Source: Bacteroides sp.
Lineage (GTDB): Bacteria; Bacteroidota; Bacteroidia; Bacteroidales; Muribaculaceae
DNA: 57,615 bases
Assembly: GCA_014802015.1 (NCBI GenBank)
Contig: JAAVDB010000022.1
Location: forward strand, 1 to 57,615
Direction of reading: 5' to 3'
Made by a program: the position numbers and the translations under genes. Positions within the stretch are counted from its first letter, which is position 1. Each line of letters starts with the position of its first letter. The notes beneath the pieces are model-generated. The model did not search any database. It was not told the origin of the DNA and saw only the letters and a program-made list of their open reading frames with translations. Positions 47,991 through 49,662 of this stretch are shown piece after piece.

Positions 47991-47998
47991 TAACTTTG
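47991..47998 (+). promoter_or_regulatory. -7 box of the capsid-like operon
   Basis: TAACTTTG matches TAnnTTTG, 31 bp before the ATG at 48030. No clear -33 element. It gives the two-gene operon its own promoter, divergent from the esterase gene. Confidence 0.5.
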
Positions 47999-48029: not shown

Positions 48030-48317
48030 ATGGAAAACATCACAACCGACACCACTCACCGTCCCGACACCGGGCACGAGCTCACAGACGCTCCCGCACC
48101 ATCTCCTACTCCTGCCGCTCCAGCACCTGTGCCTGCCACAACACCGGCAGAGGGACAGGACTCCCCTCACCCACCCATGCCCGGATCTGAGCGCGGACTC
48201 TCGCTGTGGGAACTCATGCGCAAGGATGCTGACACCCCGGGACCGTCCGATGACGACACCGACGACACCGACCGTGTCCTGCACTACGCCCGCCCCAGCA
48301 TCTGGGATCTGGACTGA
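48030..48317 (+). CDS. Small Pro/Asp-rich protein upstream of capsid-like gene
   Basis: A 95-residue protein without signal peptide or membrane segment. Residues of about 15-55 are rich in Pro, Ala and Thr and probably disordered. Two more ordered pieces stand out: an amphipathic segment GLSLWELMRKDAD (about 56-68) and the C-terminal RVLHYARPSIWDLD, separated by an Asp-rich stretch. No known family was recognised. Its position directly before a capsid-like gene is where phages encode scaffolding or protease proteins; it could equally be a cargo or anchoring protein with a short capsid-binding peptide. Both are inference. Confidence 0.65.
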   Translation: MENITTDTTHRPDTGHELTDAPAPSPTPAAPAPVPATTPAEGQDSPHPPMPGSERGLSLWELMRKDADTPGPSDDDTDDTDRVLHYARPSIWDLD

Positions 48318-48345
48318 CGCTGTCCGCACCCATGCGTCACATTTC

Positions 48346-48390
48346 ATTCATCATTCATCATTCATTATTTTTTTTTAATTCTTAATTCTT
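48346..48390 (+). repeat. Short tandem repeats around a T9 tract
   Basis: Three near-identical copies of ATTCATC (48346-48366), a run of nine T (48368-48376), then two copies of AATTCTT (48377-48390) fill the space before the capsid-like ATG at 48397. Such tracts change length easily by slippage and could alter spacing or expression of the downstream gene. Confidence 0.75.
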
Positions 48391-48396
48391 ATCACT

Positions 48397-49596
48397 ATGT
48401 CAGAAATCACAACTACCCGACTCACCGAGACCATGTCACCCAGCCTGCTCCGCAGCGAGATCGACAAACGAATCACCAAAATCCGTCCCTCCTCCACCCC
48501 TCTCGACCAGATCTCCCGTATGGCCGGAGCGCGTCAGGCCGGCTCGATGAAGGTGCAATATTACTCCGTCGATCTCAGGACAGGCACCTCCGAACTCAGT
48601 TCGACCGTCGGCAAACGCACTATTCCCAAGGATGAATCAGTGATGATCTCAGTCAAGGACAATTCTTTCCTGTCCGAGTCCGACACCATCATGTTTCCCA
48701 CCGTCAAGACCCCTGCGGGCCATCCTCTGGTGGGATACGTCACCAAGGCTGACAATCGCAATGTAAGCTTCACGCCCGTCAATCTCACGCCCAATGATGA
48801 TGACGAATACGATATGGACGCCTTGCCTTCGGGGGCACCTGTAGTCCGCATGGGTCGCGCGGCCGGCGAGCTTGACGTGCAGACTCCTCAGTTTGTCACC
48901 CTTCCCACCAAGAAGGAGAATTACTGTCAGATCTTCAAGGCCCAGATCGAGGAGTCACTGCTCCAGCGTCTGTCCGACAAGGAGGTAGGCTGGACATTCT
49001 CCGATCAGGAAGAGGCCGCGATTCTCGACATGCGTATGTGCATGGAGCGCTCATTCCTCTTCGGCGAGAAGAACAAGATTACCGTCGGCCCCGACAACAA
49101 GGACGTGATGCTCACCGGGGGTATATGGCATCAGGCCGAAAAGGATTACACCTACACGCCCGACTCGCTCAGTAACAGCGCCGTAGTCTCGATGATGCGT
49201 CAGGCATTCACCGACTCAAACGGATCCAAGCGCAAAGTCCTCATCGGTGGTTCGGGACTTATCGAGCAGATCAACCGTCTCGAACTCAGCCGCGTCCTCA
49301 CCGGTTCGCAGCATGTCACAAAGTGGGGAGTCGACTTTGATTGCATCGTGTCAAAATTCGGTTCGCTCTACGTGATACACAGCGAGGTGTTTGACCTCTG
49401 CGGCATGGAGAATCACGGTATGATCATCGACCCCGAGTACATCAGCAAATACTCGCACATACCCTTCTCGGCCGAGCGCATCAGCTTTCACAAGCAGGGC
49501 CTGCGCAACACCGAGGCCGTAGTGCTCACCGAGGCATCATGCCTCGTGCTCCGCTACCCGAAAGCCCACATGCGTATAGTCGCCACCGACAAATAG
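48397..49596 (+). CDS. HK97-fold phage-capsid-like protein, stand-alone
   Basis: A 399-residue cytosolic protein. Its layout resembles SU10-type major capsid proteins: an N-terminal arm (about 1-50), a beta-rich stretch (52-165), a long helix with paired acidic/basic residues ending MERSFLFGEKNK (about 175-227, where capsid proteins have a helix ending near a Gly-rich loop), TGGIW (240-244), the strand KVLIGGSGLIEQIN (280-293), KFGSLYVIHSE (320-330), a DPEYIS turn and a C-terminal TEASCLVLRYPKAHMRIV. The match is by pattern only. No portal, terminase, protease, tail or integrase gene is near, and the base composition is like the host. It may be a domesticated nanocompartment shell or a prophage remnant kept under selection. 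It has its own promoter, partner gene and terminator. Confidence 0.65.
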   Translation: MSEITTTRLTETMSPSLLRSEIDKRITKIRPSSTPLDQISRMAGARQAGSMKVQYYSVDLRTGTSELSSTVGKRTIPKDESVMISVKDNSFLSESDTIMFPTVKTPAGHPLVGYVTKADNRNVSFTPVNLTPNDDDEYDMDALPSGAPVVRMGRAAGELDVQTPQFVTLPTKKENYCQIFKAQIEESLLQRLSDKEVGWTFSDQEEAAILDMRMCMERSFLFGEKNKITVGPDNKDVMLTGGIWHQAEKDYTYTPDSLSNSAVVSMMRQAFTDSNGSKRKVLIGGSGLIEQINRLELSRVLTGSQHVTKWGVDFDCIVSKFGSLYVIHSEVFDLCGMENHGMIIDPEYISKYSHIPFSAERISFHKQGLRNTEAVVLTEASCLVLRYPKAHMRIVATDK

Positions 49597-49604
49597 ACTT
49601 GCAG

Positions 49605-49662
49605 GTGATAAAAAGACAGGAGCCGTCCACACTGGAGTGGACGGCTCCTGTCTTTTTATCAC
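49605..49662 (+). terminator. Terminator after the capsid-like gene
   Basis: A perfect 26-bp stem (49605-49630 with 49637-49662), 6-nt loop, with A5 and T5 runs inside the arms. It starts 8 bp past the stop. Confidence 0.88.

Follow-up and report, generated by a model that had tools for sequence, protein, structure and literature searches.

We consider a stretch of 57,615 nucleotides from a Bacteroides sp. genome of the family Muribaculaceae (contig JAAVDB010000022.1; hereafter the window, by which we mean the whole stretch), in which two adjacent genes on the forward strand encode a phage-type capsid protein and a small partner. The open reading frame (ORF) of the partner, 95 residues long, occupies positions 48030..48317, and that of the capsid protein, 399 residues long, positions 48397..49596. 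At 47991..47998 on the same strand, 39 nt 5' of the small ORF, stands the sequence TAACTTTG, a Bacteroidetes -7 promoter box (consensus TAnnTTTG). The pair ends at a terminator hairpin with a perfect stem followed by a T run (49605..49662, forward strand), whose folding energy of -55.6 kcal/mol (z -13.4) was equalled by 0 of 200 shuffles. Both ORFs, the box and the terminator thus lie where a first-pass annotation of the window, made from the letters alone, had placed them.

The flanks of the capsid locus consist of ordinary metabolic and envelope proteins. Eight were scanned: methionine synthase, an M48 peptidase, LicD, a GDSL esterase, two glycosyltransferases, mannose-6-phosphate isomerase and NadA. 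When ~195 collected phage and packaging proteins, together with the ORFs of 50 kb of the Bacteroides phage BS-TP4, were compared with the whole window by tblastn, the capsid gene was the sole match. These host-type neighbours and the capsid-only match rule out a hidden prophage at the locus, where neither the contiguous structural block nor the phage neighbours of an intact prophage are found. The annotation had remarked on the absence of terminase and portal genes; this holds for the window but not for the genome, which encodes both on another contig, C38. Its remark that the composition matches that of the host likewise holds for the capsid gene (56% G+C, versus 54% for the window) but not for the small ORF (64%).

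As had been proposed, the 399-residue product belongs to the HK97-fold major capsid proteins of SU10 type. It matches the Pfam family SU10_MCP (E = 2.2e-54) as well as phrog_26635 (3.5e-73) and phrog_1328, a major head protein (4.3e-11). To an E-value of 1 the Pfam scan returned, besides SU10_MCP, only one sub-threshold baseplate domain, and no encapsulin family. A structural model, moderately confident only (predicted local distance difference test score, pLDDT, 72.9), and the fold searches both identify an HK97-fold shell protein; the capsid structures of gene transfer agents (GTAs) in the fold list appear there as general HK97 folds only. Six exact peptide patterns taken from the window capsid gave 0 matches against viral contigs, a weak result, no profile scan of those contigs having been made. 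As a separate observation, the capsids of many relatives, those of prophages among them, begin with an N-terminal extension, some tens of residues long, in which a single hydrophobic stretch resembles a signal or membrane segment (loci L034, L037, L038, L040, L041, L043, L044, L047, L065, L073, L075, L076, L051-L054 and L270-L272). The extension is absent from the window protein and from nearly all its genus; one guess is that it serves membrane-linked assembly.

Eight phage-derived genes, all with open frames, lie at three places among host genes in the genome of the window (G000). Besides the capsid locus, a second group at C38:25201-28175 (minus strand) encodes a neck-like protein (175 residues), a portal (437 residues), a TerS-like protein (133 residues) and a connector-like protein, c10 (155 residues), and a third at C38:46244-50619 (minus strand) encodes a tail nozzle (824 residues) and the large terminase, TerL (634 residues). 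Portal and TerL are thus separated from the window contig, and by ~19 kb from each other. The names capsid, portal and terminase come from family matches, and nozzle from fold and HH profile comparison; neck-like, TerS-like and c10 are named by their homology to phage genes of unknown function and by gene position. Compared by profile with prophages and phage BS-TP4, the portal matched at 3e-117, TerL at 1e-173 and the neck-like protein at 6e-15; the TerS-like protein matched the gene that adjoins TerL in phages (3.9e-14), c10 matched BS-TP4 gp22-24 (1.1e-6), and the nozzle matched BS-TP4 gp26 (5.9e-7), which ranked top among the phage ORFs compared. In column-shuffled controls (30 each) the best values were 0.11 (c10) and 0.12 (nozzle). 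When the nozzle was modelled (pLDDT 84.7), the top eight Foldseek matches of the model were chains from phage tails, portal-tail assemblies or virions, P22, SU10, VP1, GP4 and Pa223 among them, with low template modelling scores (0.22-0.32); from rank 9 onward the matches are unrelated beta-propellers.

The same arrangement recurs in the genus, where the neck-portal pair and the nozzle-TerL pair are each present in 8/8 fetched loci; the TerS-like gene is listed in 7 and c10 in 8. Of 22 capsid loci fetched from the family's other genera, 13 have a portal gene immediately 3' of the capsid gene; a neck-like gene usually separates the two, and two genes of ~150 residues usually follow. A 485-residue portal of this kind matches P22_portal (3.3e-13) and phrog_156 (1.8e-31), and a large terminase (phrog_2, 1.3e-16) is encoded by a 652-residue gene close to a different one of these loci. 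Alignment of 14 dispersed TerL proteins shows the Walker A motif (KARQWG[GAC]ST), the Walker B acid and the C-motif, as well as the nuclease D/D, E and HDD residues, all kept where covered.

A -7 box also stands upstream of the second group in 7/8 genus loci and of the third in 10/12 loci. At capsid loci whose small ORF was detected by script, TAnnTTTG occurs within 150 nt upstream of that ORF in 39 of 45 cases (32/38 of domesticated type, 7/7 of prophage type), compared with a chance level of 4.8% in 5000 random 150-nt stretches of the window. The -7 box is a general promoter element, and it therefore indicates expression potential rather than co-regulation.

The 95-residue partner, for which the annotation had suggested a scaffold or cargo with docking-like ends, has no Pfam match; comparison across loci nevertheless points to a shrunken phage scaffold that has kept its C-terminal motif. 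An upstream ORF with the terminal motif was detected by script in 45 of 52 capsid loci, and some of the seven misses do have an upstream ORF, without the exact motif. Counted from the first ATG, so that all lengths are upper bounds, the ORF measures 245-269 residues in prophage loci (n=7), 251-331 in loci of other families (n=2), 68-200 in other Muribaculaceae genera, many of which show GYLRGRNE and an RPSVWD-like end, and 56-186 in the window's genus, with 95 or fewer in 13/18. Among the window's own relatives both SLWELM and the C-terminal RPSIWD are conserved. In HH comparisons the genus-type small protein matches the mid-length scaffolds of the family at 3.2e-6, over 18 columns only (shuffled best 0.25), and the mid-length scaffolds match those of phage length at 9.5e-9. 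The direct step from the small protein to the phage-length scaffolds is not significant (E = 0.025), and the link therefore runs through the mid-length forms. The clusters compared came from a crude longest-ORF caller, by which the small ORF was missed at some loci. The scaffolds would thus form a graded natural series, from ~250 residues or more down to 56-95, and the smallest working capsid scaffold can therefore be tested.

A capsid search of 101 genomes found a match in 59 of 61 genomes of the host family. The domesticated type, as distinct from the prophage-type copies (22-42% identity) that occur in 7/61, is present in 58/61. The matched genomes include one, G055, in which the only capsid is of prophage type (23%), and another, G024, in which the capsid piece is cut by the contig end and preceded by a scaffold-type ORF. 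In a named collection, 336 stretches encode capsid relatives, and the best 80 of these 336 are mostly titled Muribaculaceae, Duncaniella or Bacteroidales, with a few that are plainly mislabelled, for example Lachnoclostridium. In a sample of 393 genomes from across the order, 33 gave a match; of these matches, 31 were strong (E ≤ 2e-175) and fell in seven families, and two were weak. Portal and TerL were each sought in 62 genomes. The portal was found in 26/27 genomes of the genus, that of the window included, and in 10/11 other family genomes tested; TerL was found in 26/27 and 9/11, respectively, the genus count including G007 (prophage type only) and G003 (a fragment only). A set of 30 chosen genomes gave portal matches in all 30 and TerL matches in 29. 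The domesticated type is nearly family-wide, apart from the prophage copies; of the outcomes that the annotation had named as counting against its idea, namely an unrelated fold, homologues confined to prophages, or presence in a single strain, none was found.

The scattered arrangement extends beyond the family. All 14 genomes examined from six other Bacteroidales families have both portal and TerL, and both genes are at a distance of 13 kb or more from the main capsid gene or sit on a different contig; in G349, a single contig, portal, capsid and TerL lie at 1.15, 1.40 and 1.43 Mb. These families are less reduced: their scaffold is of phage length, their capsid and portal genes are longer, and they have in addition one more head gene, a gene of endolysin type and a candidate ejection protein (6/6 tested). 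The endolysin-type gene near the capsid locus of G316 belongs to phrog_894, and both this gene and its relative in G389 lack a Pfam match; genes resembling tail fibres are named by position and look only. A fumarase gene adjoins the capsid locus in 12 of the 14 loci viewed (its family assigned by Pfam for one), while two capsid loci of family f22 share another neighbour. Genes for IF-2, NusA and RimP lie near portal and nozzle in two other-family genomes, and in Muribaculaceae three loci have the same trio near nozzle-TerL, while two have it near the capsid gene. That host neighbours are shared argues that the positions are old.

Two further observations concern these families. One genome, G194, carries a contiguous capsid-portal-TerL set of prophage type (C32:34844-41439) beside the scattered one, which provides a natural contrast. 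Between the TerS-like and c10-like genes, moreover, stands a lipoprotein-like gene of ~150 residues with a C-terminal hydrophobic stretch (L271:4713-5177, L274:2100-2585, L280:5312-5773 and L281:2853-3296); the one scanned has no family match, and it is possibly a lysis accessory gene.

The domesticated capsids have a single origin, broadly vertical descent, and a history of purifying selection. In a capsid tree whose root was chosen among phage copies, 38 Muribaculaceae copies (support 97) and 14 copies from other families (94) form one clade (91), and all nine phage and prophage copies fall outside this clade of 52. Tree distances correlate with those of RpoB (r = 0.63 for capsid, 0.71 for portal, 0.78 for TerL) and with one another (0.73-0.84), no value being matched in 2000 permutations; r within the genus ranges from 0.51 to 0.89. 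For the closest pair (dS 0.13-0.21), the ratio of nonsynonymous to synonymous substitution rates, dN/dS, is 0.107 for capsid, 0.008 for portal and 0.026 for TerL. For wider pairs, in many of which dS is near saturation, it is 0.076-0.262, and a 150-codon TerL fragment gives 0.314. The capsid is therefore domesticated, as the annotation had supposed, because 58/61 family genomes carry its type, its tree broadly tracks RpoB, and its closest-pair dN/dS is 0.11.

We consider it probable that the two window genes form the head locus of a domesticated GTA of podovirus type, one that is old, dispersed and for the most part inherited vertically, and that is known at present from its genes alone. The portal, the intact terminase and the nozzle kept elsewhere in the genome, together with the portal downstream of the capsid gene in other genera, point to DNA packaging; since relatives keep these genes too, the likely product is a particle loaded with the bacterium's own DNA and not an empty shell. 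Under such a system, the gene groups would be expressed, perhaps together, from their -7-box promoters. The SxWD end of the mini-scaffold would dock on the inner face of the capsid protein, and the procapsid would be guided onto the portal. TerL, with its ATPase and nuclease, perhaps aided by the TerS-like protein, would then pack host chromosomal DNA; neck and nozzle would close the head to give a short-tailed particle, from which DNA may reach kin cells.

Kogay et al. 2022 (PMC9662315) give six features of a GTA: particle proteins derived from tailed phages; encapsidation of mostly random host DNA; full endogenization, often at several loci; inability to package its own genes fully; mostly vertical inheritance, with host co-diversification; and delivery of DNA to other cells. 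Three of these six are present here. By similarity, the particle proteins derive from tailed phages; the genes are fully endogenized, being embedded at three host-gene-flanked loci both in the genome of the window and in relatives; and inheritance is mostly vertical, as the distance congruence with RpoB and the shared host neighbours indicate. Because the genes are scattered, packaging of the set as one unit is also unlikely.

The annotation had favoured a different use for the capsid, namely an encapsulin-like compartment. In such a compartment the capsid would form a free shell in this genus, the small protein would be scaffold or cargo adaptor, and portal, TerL and nozzle would persist for another reason. 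Encapsulins are themselves virus-derived, and the window protein resembles them in its HK97 fold and in being host-encoded. Encapsulin shell genes, however, have a cargo enzyme encoded beside them, and none adjoins the window capsid; the sole significant Pfam match is a phage capsid family; and the same genomes keep portal and TerL, whose trees agree with that of the capsid at least as well as RpoB does. We therefore dropped a lone encapsulin-like shell as the principal interpretation, and regard the compartment in general as improbable.

Several observations weigh against a working GTA, and some of them would suit scattered, functionless remains of an old prophage. The agreement between trees is incomplete: gene trees share 8-12 of 18 splits (8-11 of 18 with RpoB), and topology agreement is therefore partial. 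RpoB has a dN/dS of only 0.006-0.042 for the same pairs, so that capsid, portal and TerL evolve faster. In the 101-genome search two family genomes, G027 and G051, had no capsid match, nor did 360 of the 393 genomes sampled across the order. Parts are also broken or missing, some of them in draft genomes: TerL was not found in G004, G027 and G031, nor the portal in G037 and G024; stops interrupt TerL in G019 and G037 and the portal in G021; the G012 capsid lies in two pieces on two contigs (L048 and L059), the first near a contig end; and in one genus subclade the portal is split into two frames (G008:C1:1054398-1055680, and L091 in G025), where decay, a real split gene and sequencing error cannot be told apart. 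A search of the window's genome did not recover the possible ejection protein; across 18 genomes it occurs in 6/6 from other families and 2/12 Muribaculaceae, both of the latter matches lying inside giant prophage frames of >5,000 residues beside prophage copies. No tail-fibre, receptor-binding or lysis genes lie near the three loci, the window's genome not having been searched for them genome-wide.

Decay would thus account for the broken parts and for the loss of ejection and other phage genes. It is nonetheless already hard to hold, and we judge it unlikely: the set is present in 58/61 family genomes and in six further families, closest-pair dN/dS is 0.008-0.107, and catalytic residues and promoter box are kept. 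Interference with related phages, whose assembly the capsid, scaffold or terminase proteins would spoil, could find targets in the prophages with related head genes in the same family (7/61 genomes), but eight head-to-nozzle genes under purifying selection exceed its needs, and we think it very unlikely.

Returning to the GTA, we lean, if narrowly, towards a fuller statement: that the lineage dates back at least to the divergence of Muribaculaceae from the six other families, arose from a short-tailed phage of P22/SU10 type and still works in most Muribaculaceae, and that in the window's genus it comprises eight known genes at three loci, with a scaffold reduced to roughly its docking tail, and serves as a standing route of gene exchange among bacteria that are abundant in the gut. 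Recognised GTAs occur in few host groups. If the set works, a large group of gut Bacteroidales would have a built-in DNA-transfer particle; and as no single locus resembles a prophage, locus-by-locus prophage calling would tend to miss it. Our literature search, mainly of titles and with most subscription papers and preprints outside its scope, found no reported GTA of Bacteroidales and no publication pairing the term gene transfer agent with Muribaculaceae.

A close parallel is FpGTA of Faecalibacterium prausnitzii (PMC12946183). Both systems belong to gut anaerobes, have their genes in more than one locus (for FpGTA, two operons ~125 kb apart in one strain), and include scaffold, capsid, portal, TerS/TerL and genes of short-tailed-phage type. 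FpGTA differs in belonging to another phylum and in the support reported for it, namely particles, 8.4-8.9 kb of host DNA and proteomics, compared with genes alone here. The present set is split further and spans at least seven families. The same source describes lateral transduction for Bacteroides (PMC12946183). With RcGTA of Rhodobacter capsulatus (PMC9662315) the present set shares domesticated tailed-phage genes, several loci (five in RcGTA) and vertical inheritance. The present set differs from RcGTA in its SU10-type capsid and its P22-type portal and nozzle. RcGTA is siphovirus-like.

Phage BS-TP4 and related prophages have homologues of the capsid, portal, TerL, neck, nozzle, TerS-like and c10 genes, with a scaffold at the corresponding position. 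They differ in that their structural genes form one contiguous block, accompanied by genes for replication and other phage functions, and their capsids, 35-38% identical to that of the window, lie outside the domesticated clade. The BS-TP4 gene deposited as 'tail spike protein' (L101:20340-22436) aligns with large terminases and carries the same motifs; a terminase match is cited in the note of the record as well.
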